DNA from: Acidobacteriota bacterium
GTDB lineage: Bacteria; Acidobacteriota; Terriglobia; Bryobacterales; Bryobacteraceae
Assembly: GCA_016178945.1 (NCBI GenBank)
Contig: JACOSH010000537.1
Coordinates: 1-40,542, forward strand
Direction: 5' to 3'
DNA: 40,542 nt
The notes under the pieces were generated by a model that saw only the letters and a list, made by a program, of their open reading frames with translations, made no database searches and had not been told where the DNA came from. The position numbers and the translations under genes are program-made. Every line of letters starts with the position of its first letter. The stretch's first letter is position 1. Below are positions 2,046 through 36,542 of this stretch, in pieces.

Positions 2046-3005
2046 ATGGAAGCCCTGTGGTTTTGCCTGATCGCCTTGATGATCACCACCTACGTGGTGC
2101 TGGACGGGCTCGACCTGGGGGCGGGGATCGTCCATCTGGGCGTGGCGCGGAGCGAGGCCGAGCGGCGCGAGGCGCTGGGCGCGGTTGGGCCGGTGTGGGA
2201 CGGCAATGAGATCTGGCTGGCGGCCGCCGTGGGCGCGGTGTACGCCGCCTTTCCCACGGCCCGCCTGAGCGGGTTCCACTTGCCCCTGATCGCGGTGCTG
2301 GGGCTGCTGATTGCGCGCTGGATCGCGATCGGGCTTCGCCGGCATGTGACCATAATGGGGTCGAGCGCGCTGCTGGCGATTCTGCTGGGGGCCACGCTGG
2401 GCAACGTGATGCGCGGCGTGCCGTTGGATTTCTCCGGCCAGTTCATCCTGCCCTTATGGACCGGTTTCTTCAACTGGTATTCGCTGCTGGTCGGATTGCT
2501 GGCCGGCTTCACGCTGACCGTGCACGGGGCGCTGTGGCTCGCCGGCCGGACGGGAGGGGAGGTGGCCAAAAGGTCGTTGCGCGCCGCCCGGCTCGGCTGG
2601 TGGGCGGTTGCGCTGCTGACCTTCGTGGCGACGGCCTGCACGCTGCGGGTCCAACTCCAATTGTGGGCCAACCTGGAGGCGCAGCGCTGGGGGTTCGTCT
2701 TCCCGGCGCTGGCGCTGGGAGGGCTGGCGGCCGTGCGGTACTGGGTCGTTCGGGGGGCGGCGCCCCGGGCATTCCTGGCGTCGTGCGCCTACATCGCAGG
2801 GATGCTCGGCAGCGCGGCGTTCGGCCTGTTTCCGAATGTGCTGCCTTCCAGCACCGGGCTGGGGCCGGCCCTGACGGTCTACAGCACGGCGGCAAGCGGC
2901 GGTCTATTGAAGGCCGGGTTGCTGTGGTGGATTCCCGGCATGATGCTGGCGGCGGGATACTCGGTCTACATGCATCGCGCTAGAACCTGTACTCCGGGGG
3001 CTTGA
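2046..3005 (+). CDS. cydB: Cytochrome bd ubiquinol oxidase subunit II (CydB)
   Basis: A 319-residue polytopic membrane protein with CydB signatures: the N-terminal TM with VLDGLDLGAG, then GPVWDGNEIWLAAAVGAVYAAFP (family pattern GPxWDGNxxWL..G...FAAxP), WTGFFNWYSLLVGLL, and a late FPNVLPSS segment before the last helices. Subunit II supports the haem-carrying subunit I in quinol oxidation and O2 reduction at the inner membrane. The start is ATG 2046, preceded by AAAGGTGGAG; the track start (GTG 2037) lies inside that ribosome-binding region. It is a little shorter than E. coli CydB. No cydA is adjacent: an M14 peptidase and a repeat lie upstream and a convergent DinB gene downstream. The gene looks intact. 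Its 3' end overlaps the DinB gene by 26 bp. Confidence 0.88.
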   Translation: MEALWFCLIALMITTYVVLDGLDLGAGIVHLGVARSEAERREALGAVGPVWDGNEIWLAAAVGAVYAAFPTARLSGFHLPLIAVLGLLIARWIAIGLRRHVTIMGSSALLAILLGATLGNVMRGVPLDFSGQFILPLWTGFFNWYSLLVGLLAGFTLTVHGALWLAGRTGGEVAKRSLRAARLGWWAVALLTFVATACTLRVQLQLWANLEAQRWGFVFPALALGGLAAVRYWVVRGAAPRAFLASCAYIAGMLGSAAFGLFPNVLPSSTGLGPALTVYSTAASGGLLKAGLLWWIPGMMLAAGYSVYMHRARTCTPGA

Positions 3006-3513
3006 TGCCTTTCACTCGCAGGTAGACCTCGGCCTGTCCGCGGTGATGCGCGGTGTGCGTGAAGTATGCCCACAGCCATTCGAAACCGGTCAAATTGCGG
3101 GCCGGCGGGCCGGCCACCGTATCCAGACGGGCGGGGGTCATCGCGGCCACGGCCTGGTTGCAGAAATCGAAGGAGTCCTTCATGAACTGGAGGGCCGTCT
3201 CCTTGTCGACTTCCACCTTCCCGGTGTCCTTGGCCCACTCGGCGATCTTGGGCGGGAGCGCCGGCCGCGCCAGGCCGCTGGCATTGGCGCATGCGCCGAG
3301 ATTTATCCCCGCGATGTGCGCCATCAACTGCCCGAAACTCATCTCCTCGGGGTTGGGACGAAACCTGTAGCCCTCAGCGGGCATGGCCGCCGCCACCGCG
3401 AGGGTGAATTCGCCGGAGACCTTCCAATGTTTGACCAGGGCGTCCTTGACGGTGGTTTGGGCCAGCGCGGGAACGGCCAGCGCCAGGATCGGGAATAGGT
3501 GTGCTTTCATCAT
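2980..3513 (-). CDS. Secreted DinB-family protein
   Basis: A 177-residue protein with a clear signal peptide (MMKAHLFPILALAVPALAQ) followed by a DinB/YfiT-like four-helix bundle. The family's three metal-binding histidines are recognisable: one in LMAHIAG and the pair region in FTHTAHHRGQAEVYLR, the strongest single motif. DinB-like proteins are often thiol-dependent metalloenzymes or of unknown function; exported versions are frequent in acidobacteria. No thiol-transferase partner gene is adjacent, so a precise reaction cannot be given. It converges on cydB with a 26-bp overlap of the coding ends, so neither gene has its own terminator between them. Confidence 0.82.
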   Translation of the reverse strand: MMKAHLFPILALAVPALAQTTVKDALVKHWKVSGEFTLAVAAAMPAEGYRFRPNPEEMSFGQLMAHIAGINLGACANASGLARPALPPKIAEWAKDTGKVEVDKETALQFMKDSFDFCNQAVAAMTPARLDTVAGPPARNLTGFEWLWAYFTHTAHHRGQAEVYLRVKGIKPPEYRF

Positions 3514-3554
3514 CGGCCTTCAGGTCGCCGCCATCTCACCCTCAGCGTTTCCGG

Positions 3555-3700
3555 TTAGCTGTCGGCATCAACGTCACCGCGCATCCGCATGCCTTCGACA
3601 TGGAACTCGATCGCCTCTCGCAGGAGTTGACGAGTCTCTTCCAGCGTCGCGGCAGCAGCGACGCATCCAGGAAGATCCCATTTCAGCCCTGCCTGTTTCA
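3555..3700 (-). pseudogene. HicB-like antitoxin remnant
   Basis: On the minus strand, 40-odd codons read DLPGCVAAAATLEETRQLLR, then EAIEFHVEGMRMRGD, then a stop at 3555-3557. This matches the second half of HicB N-terminal domains (PDLPGCVA.G.T.EEA..LI.EAI..HLEGL...G). Upstream in the same frame the typical beta-strand start is missing and no credible ATG with a ribosome-binding site is seen. A neighbouring frame carries EIYTETG, which recalls the lost N-terminus, so a frameshift is plausible. No HicA partner was found. I read it as a decayed solitary fragment. Confidence 0.5.
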
Positions 3701-3913
3701 GTATAGATCTCTCGGACTTCGGGTCTGTCGGACTCGATCCGCTCGATTCGCGTCTCTGACCTTCATCACCACTATTCTGCCCTACGAAAAACGAATGTTG
3801 GGCTAGCGAGGCCGATCCGAAGCAAGTCCGACCGGCTCGGAGTCATACATTTGGGCCAAGTAGCACGCAACAGTGGAGTTGCCGTCCCGATAAGTGACCC
3901 ATGAGGCAATAAC
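3701..3913. other. Non-coding stretch upstream of the unknown gene pair
   Basis: No convincing ORF, RNA gene or terminator is seen here. The reverse ORF that overlaps it (3772-4107) lies antisense to the next gene and has no recognisable content. The promoter of the 3914 gene should lie here, but no clear -35/-10 pair could be picked out. Confidence 0.4.
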
Positions 3914-4585
3914 ATGAACGTCGCCTTTAGCAGCCCTCCGAAAGTCAAATGGAACGCGCCCGTAGGCGAGATTCCACGGCCCCCTCGACCGACGCCTCCG
4001 GCGTTCCAGGCCCCCCGGCGTCCCCCTCTGGATACAGTCTGGCTGACCCGGGTTCCCCCGGACGACTTGTCCAAGATCAACAGCGTGGTCTCACAGCTTG
4101 TTGCCAAGTGTGGATTGTCCGCCCAGGAAGCGCGGGCTCTGACCGTCGCCCTGGCGAGCCAGCCGCCTCAAAACCTGGATGCGGAGATCGCCATGCTTCG
4201 CCGGGTCATTAACGGTTACACGCAAATGACGCCCATCGAGATGGACTGGACCAGGGACGTCACTCGCAGAATTGTGACCGCATACAGTCAGTTGCAGGGG
4301 TTCAGAGACTGGAAACCGGATCGGATCAACCCCTACGTCGTGGAGGTGCTCCTGTCTTACGCCGCCTCAATGGTGAACGTTCCGGCGGCGATAAACGCGG
4401 CCAGAGTGCTTGCCAACACCACCGAGGAGGCCTTTCTCAAACTCCGGCCGGAGTTGACACCGCCTGATGCGGGTTGGGCAATCGACGCCATCCTGGAAAA
4501 GGCGGCCGATCTGATGGGCCGGGGCCAACAAACTCCGCTTCAGGCGGCCGAGGAAATCGTGCAGCGTCTGCACAAGAGAAGATAG
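3914..4585 (+). CDS. Unknown protein with Pro-rich N-terminus
   Basis: I do not recognise this 223-residue protein. There is no signal peptide and no long hydrophobic segment, so it is probably cytoplasmic. Residues 1-40 are a Pro/Arg-rich, probably disordered tail (PPRPTPPAFQAPRRPP). The rest looks helical, ending in a charged helix (EEIVQRLHKRR). No catalytic motif is visible. It precedes another unknown ORF of similar size by 26 bp with a strong ribosome-binding site, suggesting a two-gene unit. Codon choice here is less GC-extreme than in the flanking receptor and peptidase genes, which could mean later acquisition; this was judged by eye only. The long open frame, clean start and spacing support a real gene. 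Confidence 0.65.
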   Translation: MNVAFSSPPKVKWNAPVGEIPRPPRPTPPAFQAPRRPPLDTVWLTRVPPDDLSKINSVVSQLVAKCGLSAQEARALTVALASQPPQNLDAEIAMLRRVINGYTQMTPIEMDWTRDVTRRIVTAYSQLQGFRDWKPDRINPYVVEVLLSYAASMVNVPAAINAARVLANTTEEAFLKLRPELTPPDAGWAIDAILEKAADLMGRGQQTPLQAAEEIVQRLHKRR

Positions 4586-4611
4586 CACCGTCCAAGAAGG
4601 AGACTACACCC

Positions 4612-5274
4612 ATGCAAATCGCCGCCACCCTAGCCCGCTCGTCGTTCTCAAACTTTCTTCCGCCGGCATCCAAGCCCTTGCTGAAACCGGCCAAACCCGT
4701 GACGTACAGCATGAAGGCGGTGGCGGCGCAGATGGTCGCCCTGTCGCGGCTGAATGCTCCGAGCGCGCTGGCGGGCGCTCTGGAGCGGCGGGAGAAGCTC
4801 ACGACGGTCCTCGAGTACGCAAATCAAAACGGGTTCTCAGCGAGCGAAATCGACCAGCTCAAGCAGATGCTGACCAATCCCTTGGACCCGGCCGCCGACT
4901 CGAAGCTGGAAATGGCGAGAATCCTGACGAAACAGCCCCACAGCGGAGGGCTGAAGGCCTTCCTCGCTCTCGACAAGCTGAGCCAGGCGAATCCCAACCG
5001 GCTTCCACTGGGTCTTGTCAGCGCCCTGTCGTTGTCCACGGGATTGGGCTTACTCACCTTCGACAGCGCCATGGCTACGTCCGGCGCCCTGGTGAAAATG
5101 TTCGAAGAGCCCTATCAGCGCTTCAAGACCGCCTGGTCGTCCCTGCGATCGCCGGCTGCCGAGGAAGACCTGATGGCCCGCCTCTCCCAAAACGCCCACG
5201 GCTTCGACATACCGCTCGTCTCGTACCAGAATATGCTGATGGATCAGGTCCTGCGGGGTTTCGCCAACCAGTAA
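4612..5274 (+). CDS. Unknown helical protein, second gene of the pair
   Basis: A 220-residue protein that I do not recognise. The start is ATG 4612, directly after a strong AAGAAGGAG at 4594-4602; the track start at 4474 runs through the previous gene in another frame and is rejected. It has no classical signal peptide. The first 35 residues are rich in Ser, Pro and Lys, followed by mostly helical sequence with one moderately hydrophobic stretch (LPLGLVSALSLSTGLGLLTF, about residues 126-145) that could be a buried hairpin or membrane-active helix. A shared layout (flexible N-terminal tail, helical body, near-equal length) links it to the preceding gene, though I see no clear sequence homology between them. 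Function unknown. Confidence 0.68.
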   Translation: MQIAATLARSSFSNFLPPASKPLLKPAKPVTYSMKAVAAQMVALSRLNAPSALAGALERREKLTTVLEYANQNGFSASEIDQLKQMLTNPLDPAADSKLEMARILTKQPHSGGLKAFLALDKLSQANPNRLPLGLVSALSLSTGLGLLTFDSAMATSGALVKMFEEPYQRFKTAWSSLRSPAAEEDLMARLSQNAHGFDIPLVSYQNMLMDQVLRGFANQ

Positions 5275-33717: not shown

Positions 33718-33908
33718 GATGATTCCCGGCATGCTTCGCCTAAACCGGTTGGGAATTGAGGAGCATGCGACCTCGGCGCGGTAGCAACCCGGTTTGCGCA
33801 CGTTCTGACGCGGCAGCGTAGGCCGGCATGCATACTCGACCTTCTCTTCGATATACTGATGGCGGCCGCACAGGCAGTGAAGTCCCGGGCAATGAAAGGC
33901 GGAGAACG
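33718..33908. other. Non-coding stretch before the caspase-like gene
   Basis: No gene is supported here. The minus-strand ORF 33610-33801 is the MutS remnant extended upstream by sequence without recognisable content. GGAG at 33901-33904 is the ribosome-binding site of the following gene. Confidence 0.4.
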
Positions 33909-35045
33909 ATGAAACCTAGAGTTCTGGCCCTCGCGCTACTTTCAGCGTCGCTCCCGGCGGTGTTCGCTCAGAGCACTACCATCCGCGTCGCCATCATCCC
34001 CGACAGCCAGAGTCTGACCGTCACGCCTCAGACCGAGACCGTGCTGCGCGTCACCGTCTTCGGGTCCGACGGCAAAGTCGCGCCGGACCTCGGGGTGGTG
34101 TTTGTGGCGCCCGAATCCGGCGCTACCGGCTCCTTTCCGGAGGCCCCTTCCGACGGAGCCACGCTCTACTGGACGAAGACCGACTCCGATGGCAGCGCGT
34201 CGGCGCGCTTCCTTCCCAACGGAACGGCGGGCATCTACCTGCTGGCCGCCGCAGTGGACGGCAGCGATGCCAGCGTAACCTTTGCGGTGACCAGCTCGGC
34301 CGATGCCCCCTCCAACACGCTCTCCGGCGACGAGGCGCGAGCCGCTCTGCGAGCGCAGCTCACCCTGAAAGCCTTTGACGATGAATCGCAGCGCCTCCAC
34401 GGCCCCGTGCTTCTGCCGGCCGGCTCCACCGTCAAGGCCGCCGGGCAGAGCAGCCGGCTCTTTCCCACCACGCCCGCGACCACGGAGAGATCCTCCTGGT
34501 TGTTCTGGATCGACGACAACCCTCTGGCCCGCTTCGAGCATCCCACGCGCTTCGTCATCCTCGACGCCGCCTCGGGCAGCTCCGATTTCAACGACTTCAC
34601 CCGTATCGCCACCCTCACGCGCCAGGGCTGGTGGCCCGAGGTTATACTGCCCGGCGCGGACACGCCGGTATCTCTGCTCTCTCCGCTGCGCACTAACAGC
34701 GGTCTCACCGTTTCACGCGCCGCCCGAGCCCGCCCCGCGGCCGTCGAGCTGGCGCGCGCCCCCTTCGCCAACGTCAGCCCCGACCAGACTTGCGCCATTG
34801 TGATTTATGGCCCCTCCGATACCGCCATGTCCATCGATGCCGACGACATGAGCAAATTCTTCCACGAGAAACTGCTCATCCCCGAGACCAACATTTTCCG
34901 GGGCACGAATCTGTTCGGATTCTCCCGCCCCACCAACGGCTCCATGCTGCAGGCTTTTGTCCGCGGCGCGGTGCGTCAGGGTTGCAAGAAAGTCTACCTG
35001 TACGTCTCGGCCCACGGTTCGCTTGGAGCCAACGGCAACTCTTGA
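33909..35045 (+). CDS. Secreted caspase-like protein, N-terminal part (ends at in-frame TGA)
   Basis: The first 378 residues of a large exported protein. The signal peptide MKPRVLALALLSASLPAVFAQ starts at ATG 33909, just after GGAGAACG. Residues ~22-135 form an Ig-like domain (TVTPQTETVLRVTVFGSDGK, then TKTDSDGSASARFLPNGTAG). After a linker comes a caspase-hemoglobinase-like fold: CAIVIYGPSDTAMSIDADDM, then AFVRGAVRQGCKKVYLYVSAHGSLG, where His369 is the likely catalytic His. The frame ends at TGA 35043-35045 ten residues later, but the same frame continues with TGDSGSSVEDCQ and reaches the catalytic Cys. So the enzyme is cut between its two catalytic residues. Either a nonsense mutation or a sequence error; selenocysteine is not supported. 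Confidence 0.75.
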   Translation: MKPRVLALALLSASLPAVFAQSTTIRVAIIPDSQSLTVTPQTETVLRVTVFGSDGKVAPDLGVVFVAPESGATGSFPEAPSDGATLYWTKTDSDGSASARFLPNGTAGIYLLAAAVDGSDASVTFAVTSSADAPSNTLSGDEARAALRAQLTLKAFDDESQRLHGPVLLPAGSTVKAAGQSSRLFPTTPATTERSSWLFWIDDNPLARFEHPTRFVILDAASGSSDFNDFTRIATLTRQGWWPEVILPGADTPVSLLSPLRTNSGLTVSRAARARPAAVELARAPFANVSPDQTCAIVIYGPSDTAMSIDADDMSKFFHEKLLIPETNIFRGTNLFGFSRPTNGSMLQAFVRGAVRQGCKKVYLYVSAHGSLGANGNS

Positions 35046-35096
35046 ACCGGCGATTCAGGGTCCTCGGTCGAGGACTGCCAAAGCGGTTACATCTGT

Positions 35097-36542
35097 TTGG
35101 ATAATGAGAACAACAACGATGGTTCCACGGAGTTCGACTATCTTTCTTATCAGGAGCTCGGCCAGTTCCTCCAGCCCCTGAAGGACCAGGCCGAGGTCTG
35201 CATCATCCTCGACGTCTGCTTTTCGGGCGGGGCCATCGCCCACATGCAGAATATCAACCTGACCGGCGCCATCGTCACCGGCGCCGATACGAGCGGCTAT
35301 ACAGTCGAGCTGAATCTGCCGCTCATCGGCGGCGGCTACTTCACCAGCGCTCTCATCAGTTGCTGGAAGGACCTCCTGGGCCAGCGTCCCGGCCAGCCGG
35401 CCGGTTTGGACGAGGTGACCCGCTGGGTCACCGCGAACGGGGGCGCGAGCGCCAATAACGGGCATCCTCAATTCGCAACCATCGATGCCAAGGGCGGCGT
35501 ATTTCCGCTGAATACCGCGATTATTGAAAAGGTCGACGACCCCAAGAGTAACCCGGTGACTGTGAGGATCGACCGGCCGGCCGGGGCCAACGGCGGGCTG
35601 GTCGTCAAGCTGACGATCTCCGATCCCACGGTGGCGAATTTCGGCGGGGAAACAACCGTTGTCAAGGCGCTCCCGGCCGGAGTGAATTCCACCACCATCC
35701 AGATCACCGGTCTGCGCGACGGCGTCACCACGTACACGGCTGAGACCCAGGACAGCAACAACAAGCCGTATAAGGGTCTGGGAACCGTGCGCGTGGGCGA
35801 CGGCTACTTCGTGCAGCCCAACCCGATCCGGATCAAGGCCGGCGACAAAGTTTCCGCGACCCTGTTCCGGATGTTCGGCGTCGCCAACGTGACCGGTCCG
35901 GTAAAGTGCACGTTCATTCCCAAGGACCCCACTCAGACCGGAATCGCCGGGGTTACACCCGATGTCACCTTCAACACCGGCGAAACCCAGAAGACTTTCA
36001 CAGTGGAGGGACTACGTCCCGGAACCGTGATCATCAAGGTGACCGACAACCTCGCGTTTCCGCTGGGCACCACGTTCCAGGTGATCGTGGAAGGAACTCC
36101 GCAGACCGGGTGCCTGTTCCAGGGCACGGCGGATTCCACCTTCGTGGTGAGCTTCGATCCGCCTCCGATGCATGATCCGTTCATCGGAATCCGCCGCGCG
36201 GTGCTCCAGTACAACTCTACCGCCCAGGGCGCGGTCACCATCTCCAGCGATCAGCCCCAGGTGGTGCGCGCCACCGGAACGCTGAACCAGACCACCTGCG
36301 TGTTCAATGCGTCGGGAACGGGAACCGTCGCGGGCTTCCAAAACGTCTCGTGCCAATACCGGAACGTCAAGGTGGATCGCGCCACCAACAGAATCCAAGG
36401 CGATTACGCGCTGGGCGTCAGTCGCGAGCTGCCCAGCGGCCACGAGATCGTCTACAGCTTTACGGGAACGTTCCGCGCCGGCACTACCGCCTCGGCGCCC
36501 GCACGGCCGCTTGCCGGACCAAGCCTGCCAGCGCCGCGATGA
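35097..36542 (+). CDS. Secreted caspase-like protein, C-terminal part (after in-frame TGA)
   Basis: The in-frame continuation of the 33909 gene; if read through, the product would be 877 residues. It contains DNENNNDGSTEFDYLSYQEL and then EVCIILDVCFSGGAIAHM, in which the Cys (residue 437 of the full frame) is the expected caspase/metacaspase nucleophile (family DSCHSGG). After the peptidase domain (to about residue 530) the rest is a chain of beta-sandwich regions (NPVTVRIDRPAGANGGLVVK, VTPDVTFNTGETQKTFTVEG), probably for surface binding. TTG 35097 is the earliest track start, but it has no ribosome-binding site and the product lacks a signal peptide, so this part is unlikely to be made correctly alone. 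It ends 33 bp from the stop of the convergent PQQ gene. Confidence 0.72.
   Translation: MDNENNNDGSTEFDYLSYQELGQFLQPLKDQAEVCIILDVCFSGGAIAHMQNINLTGAIVTGADTSGYTVELNLPLIGGGYFTSALISCWKDLLGQRPGQPAGLDEVTRWVTANGGASANNGHPQFATIDAKGGVFPLNTAIIEKVDDPKSNPVTVRIDRPAGANGGLVVKLTISDPTVANFGGETTVVKALPAGVNSTTIQITGLRDGVTTYTAETQDSNNKPYKGLGTVRVGDGYFVQPNPIRIKAGDKVSATLFRMFGVANVTGPVKCTFIPKDPTQTGIAGVTPDVTFNTGETQKTFTVEGLRPGTVIIKVTDNLAFPLGTTFQVIVEGTPQTGCLFQGTADSTFVVSFDPPPMHDPFIGIRRAVLQYNSTAQGAVTISSDQPQVVRATGTLNQTTCVFNASGTGTVAGFQNVSCQYRNVKVDRATNRIQGDYALGVSRELPSGHEIVYSFTGTFRAGTTASAPARPLAGPSLPAPR

Follow-up and report, generated by a model that had tools for sequence, protein, structure and literature searches.

The two adjacent genes at positions 3914 to 5274 of the window (the whole analysed stretch of 40,542 nucleotides, from a 7.3-Mb acidobacterial assembly that comprises 606 contigs), hereafter A and B, are best explained as diverged tandem relatives that belong, as free-standing members acting by binding, to a new effector-type protein family of patchy distribution. 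We assign this reading a probability of about 0.4. Members of the family would have a disordered N-terminal tail rich in Pro, Ser and Thr followed by an all-helical domain of approximately 130 residues, and in distant acidobacteria the same tail and domain appear to front a C-terminal C39/papain-like peptidase-like domain, in proteins that we refer to as E-type. In effector-type proteins, the tail and helical domain together may serve for targeting or docking, in which case the short members, A, B and a paralogue of B (hereafter C), would bind a partner rather than perform catalysis. The effector nature, the secretion and the action of A and B by binding a partner are inferences.

An initial sequence-only reading of this region had described two open reading frames of about 220 residues each, 26 bp apart and with a strong ribosome-binding site between them, and the features of the pair agreed with that description:

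3903–3906, plus strand: ribosome-binding site of gene A (GAGG, 7-nt spacer, moderate), from the sequence
3914–4585, plus strand: gene A, a 223-residue stand-alone protein of tail and helical domain; open reading frame with an in-frame E-type profile match
3914–4039, plus strand: disordered Pro/Arg-rich N-terminal tail of A; 12 Pro in 42 residues, no predicted helix before residue 39
4097–4459, plus strand: helical domain of A (residues 62–182), probably in common with the E-type proteins; hhalign
4597–4602, plus strand: ribosome-binding site of gene B (AAGGAG, 9-nt spacer, strong), within the A–B gap
4612–5274, plus strand: gene B, a 220-residue stand-alone protein of tail and helical domain; open reading frame with paralogue C
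4612–4713, plus strand: N-terminal tail of B; 5 Pro in 34 residues, low pLDDT
4759–5130, plus strand: helical domain of B (residues 50–173), in common with C and the E-type proteins; HMM and hhalign

The genes are arranged head to tail, separated by 26 nt (4586–4611), and are probably co-transcribed. Comparisons at the protein level confirmed both as coding genes, as B has a paralogue and A gives an in-frame match to an independent profile. No signal peptide was seen in either protein by inspection, as had been proposed, and the Pro-rich N-terminal tails that had been noted were strong in A and weaker in B. Residues 131–150 of B are fairly hydrophobic.

Upstream of A is a DinB-family gene (2980–3513, minus strand) and downstream of B is the gene of an Oar-like TonB-dependent receptor. 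Promoter and terminator scans were uninformative, and nothing that would mark a mobile insertion was found, be it a long flanking repeat, a tRNA or an Rfam RNA. A HicB-like antitoxin remnant (PF15919, E 2.2e-6) adjoins A at 3555–3701 on the minus strand; it has stops in its upstream part, no HicA was seen alongside, and it looks degraded. Other observations in the window were of cydB (2046–3005; PF02322, E 9.8e-54) without an adjoining cydA and with an M14 peptidase gene upstream, and of two consecutive open reading frames at 33906–36542 that resemble one caspase-like protein split near 35045–35097. The latter have HGSLG and DVCFSGG motifs by inspection, with nothing convincing in Pfam.

The pair had also been thought less GC-biased than the flanking genes. 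This was the case within the window, where GC3 was 0.73 for A and 0.81 for B against 0.84–0.92 for most neighbors, but compared to 152 open reading frames in 290 kb of this genome both were ordinary, with codon adaptation at the 19th percentile for A and the 55th for B. The codon difference is real in the window and unremarkable genome-wide, and thus is not, alone, proof of recent acquisition; a recent horizontal gain of A and B, as a candidate explanation of the bias, was unsupported by the genome-wide set.

Scans of A and B against Pfam, NCBIfam, PHROGs and PADLOC gave nothing above chance, which upheld the view that neither protein has a recognized family. Two candidate identities for B, glycoside hydrolase family 114 (11.1 bits, where the cut-off is 27) and RT_UG13a (10.3 bits), were rejected as chance matches. 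No close relatives were found in IMG/VR and GTDB-220 contigs using A, B and a B+C profile as queries, nor any close relatives of A or B in plasmids; searches of viral contigs, phages and plasmids with the E-type proteins found nothing, and PDB sequence searches gave no match. The weak single-query matches (L004, L006, L009, L011, L013, L014, L016, L017 and L020) were parts of unrelated proteins or frames and were rejected, CheA-like kinases and a porin-like protein among them. Single-sequence AlphaFold models of A and B were all-helical, and the helix patterns predicted separately for the two proteins had the same order at low confidence. The helical character expected of them was thereby reproduced, but at a pLDDT of only 54. 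As expected at that value, a fold search with the A model returned nothing at E 0.001 or better, and the models are too poor to back any fold.

Relatives outside the known families were found when an A+B+C profile was run against 396 genomes of the phylum. Two matches were obtained, with E-values of a few 1e-6 per genome, or roughly 1e-3 after correction for genome number. The two proteins are from different families and show mutual homology (43% identity, E 1.5e-75), which argues that they were not random profile matches. The genome of the first carries further copies, and the E-type proteins, of approximately 490 residues, were named E1–E4; they are encoded in two distant acidobacterial genomes, G564 (L027, L028 and L029) and G588 (L030). 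An HMM built from E1–E4 alone, with A, B and C excluded, gave E-values of 2e-7 for C, 9e-4 for B and 0.03 for A (Z=5000), in the same domain and register. In profile–profile comparisons (hhalign, with E-values for a single comparison), B+C aligned to the E-type profile with a probability of 96.2% and E 2.6e-9, and A with a probability of 61% and E 8.1e-5. When A was fully shuffled 5000 times, its score against the E domain was never reached; with 5000 shuffles in 11-residue blocks, it was reached three times. In addition, few non-E segments in a set of 1663 from six-frame translation scored against the E profile, and C, B and A were among them.

Based on the E1–E4 HMM, the profile–profile scores and the shuffles of A, these comparisons place B and C securely in the E-type domain family, a strong homology, and A probably so, a moderate one with modest scores. 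There was no significant direct sequence signal between A and B or between A and C, and the relatedness of A and B as judged from these alignments runs mainly through the E-type domain family. The matching layout of the two genes, which had been remarked upon, is meaningful, as A and B most likely have one helical domain in common. The suggestion that both lack any family did not survive, as B has a paralogue and both proteins relate to the N-terminal half of the E-type proteins.

The paralogue, C, is encoded on another contig of the same genome (L007:1399–2064) and has 29% identity to B (E 2.5e-21). B and C are of equal length and have an identical end point despite that low identity, which indicates that the short form predates the split of B from C. 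The short, peptidase-less form looks stable, given this common end point and the lack of a nearby peptidase remnant; a six-frame scan showed no such remnant in the window. No partner of the A/B type adjoins C. C and an Oar-like receptor gene flank a HigB-like toxin and an HTH antitoxin, both recognized by inspection (L031, about 3102–3799, minus strand). The A/B pair likewise has an Oar-like gene on one side and the HicB remnant on the other, a resemblance that may be coincidental given how common Oar-like genes are. Low-identity paralogues such as these fit the picture of Candidatus Solibacter usitatus, a related large genome rich in old, diverged paralogues (PMC3174227).

The distribution of the domain across acidobacteria, which the sequence-only reading had put forward as a check, proved to be sporadic. 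The only genome with a convincing score for the helical domain, among 237 from its taxonomic family, was the carrier genome itself (G000), in a search where several assemblies were fragmented and the first-look step can miss distant copies. No E-type protein was found in the carrier genome, and among the 396 genomes of the phylum E-type proteins were found only in the two far relatives.

The E-type proteins consist of a disordered tail, the helical domain and then a C-terminal half of approximately 200 residues. In E1, E2 and E4 this half keeps SC-x-x-T, then [AG]H, then TDP, which is a C39-like Cys-His-Asp pattern, and we infer from the motif pattern alone that it adopts a C39/papain-like peptidase-like fold; no Pfam family matched it even at E 10. 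E3 has lost the catalytic Cys and His and kept the helical domain. A and B have no Cys-His-Asp catalytic domain, as both end before the peptidase half. Some of the E-type copies elsewhere are stop-interrupted or contig-cut, and the 5′ part of the E4 gene (L030 1–400, G588) is interrupted by stops and frame changes, with a LysM-like end (by inspection) just upstream.

Conserved small partner open reading frames of 124–141 residues occur after E-type genes in three places, directly after two of the genes (one a contig-cut copy) and near a third. No partner gene was found for E1 in the 332 nt up to the contig end, and none of the E-type kind was found in the window or on the C contig. In L029, E3 and its neighbor have approximately 100 N-terminal residues and leader DNA in common and then differ, as expected of a common targeting module. 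A small PAAR-like gene was seen only near E3, following in the same cluster (L029 7027–7347, minus strand), and its weak matches to PF05488 (E 0.0045) and NF033420 (E 0.0025) were far below the cut-offs. A search for the phage-type contractile sheath family PF04984 found no match in G000, G564 or G588, and this weakens a model of contractile delivery.

A serious rival to a docking module is that A and B are stand-alone prodomain-like inhibitors. By analogy with the eukaryotic I29 inhibitors, the helical half of the E-type proteins would be an inhibitory prodomain, and free copies would block the peptidases of attackers. The position of the helical domain N-terminal to a papain-like peptidase-like domain is consistent with this, as is the failure to detect an E-type peptidase in the carrier genome, which would fit orphan immunity. 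Stand-alone propeptide-like inhibitors are also an established kind, with examples in crammer (PMC3551606), the I29 family (PMC6010012) and subtilisin propeptide-like inhibitors (PMC6993865). However, the domain exceeds I29 propeptides in size and no such Pfam model matched it, E3 keeps it despite the loss of its catalytic residues, and A, B and C retain effector-like disordered tails; we consider inhibition unlikely. Similarly doubtful is that A, B and C are decaying remnants, that is, effector-type genes that lost their peptidase half and are now drifting. Such decay would accord with the sporadic distribution, the weaker codon adaptation of A and C, the degraded HicB remnant beside A and the interrupted or truncated E-type copies, but the frames of A, B and C are all intact and B has a good ribosome-binding site. 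The equal length and common end of B and C, and the lack of a downstream peptidase remnant, also argue against drift.

It is quite improbable that A and B work inside the cell as a lineage-specific pair with no part in delivery, for instance as a small hetero-oligomer. The lack of a signal peptide, of a PF04984 sheath and of an effector-type gene nearby would suit such a pair, as would the operon-like spacing, but their homology to the N-terminal half of peptidase-type proteins speaks against it, as does the sporadic pattern with paralogues. That the two form a toxin–antitoxin pair is scarcely credible: they are small, co-directional and adjacent, and toxin–antitoxin-type genes adjoin both A (the HicB remnant) and C (the HigBA-like genes, by inspection), yet A and B carry the same domain in about 220 residues each, neither matched a toxin–antitoxin or PADLOC family, and C lacks an adjoining partner of their type.

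On the reading of A and B as binding members of an effector-type family, two genes that looked like orphans join an unlisted family, which occurs in a short and a peptidase-fused architecture. This reading also links lineage-specific genes of soil acidobacteria to possible protein effectors, a little-described area of acidobacterial biology; should the function stay unproven, the gain would be a modest one in annotation. A more far-reaching possibility, which we regard as speculative and rather unlikely, is that the helical domain is a new module governing papain-like effector peptidases in Acidobacteriota, either through delivery and docking or by serving as an inhibitory prodomain. A, B and C would then be separate copies of it, in competition with such effectors or neutralizing them.

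The E-type proteins and A, B and C have the disordered N-terminal tail and the helical domain in common, whereas only the E-type proteins add the C39/papain-like C-terminal half and, often, a downstream partner. In comparison to known systems, A and B are similar to the MEROPS I29 inhibitors such as crammer (PMC3551606) in being a stand-alone helical domain that is otherwise found N-terminal to a papain-like peptidase; A and B are larger, no sequence relation was found, and any inhibition by them is putative. The E-type proteins are similar to polymorphic toxins with the papain-like domains Tox-PLC39 and Tox-PL1 (PMC3482391) in having a variable N-terminal part, a C-terminal papain-like domain with Cys, His and Asp, and a small downstream gene. 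They differ from those toxins in having no Pfam or NCBIfam match and no classical trafficking domain, and A and B differ further in having no catalytic domain. The arrangement of the E3 cluster, by analogy, resembles the common targeting part and variable ends of polymorphic toxins and effectors (PMC3482391).
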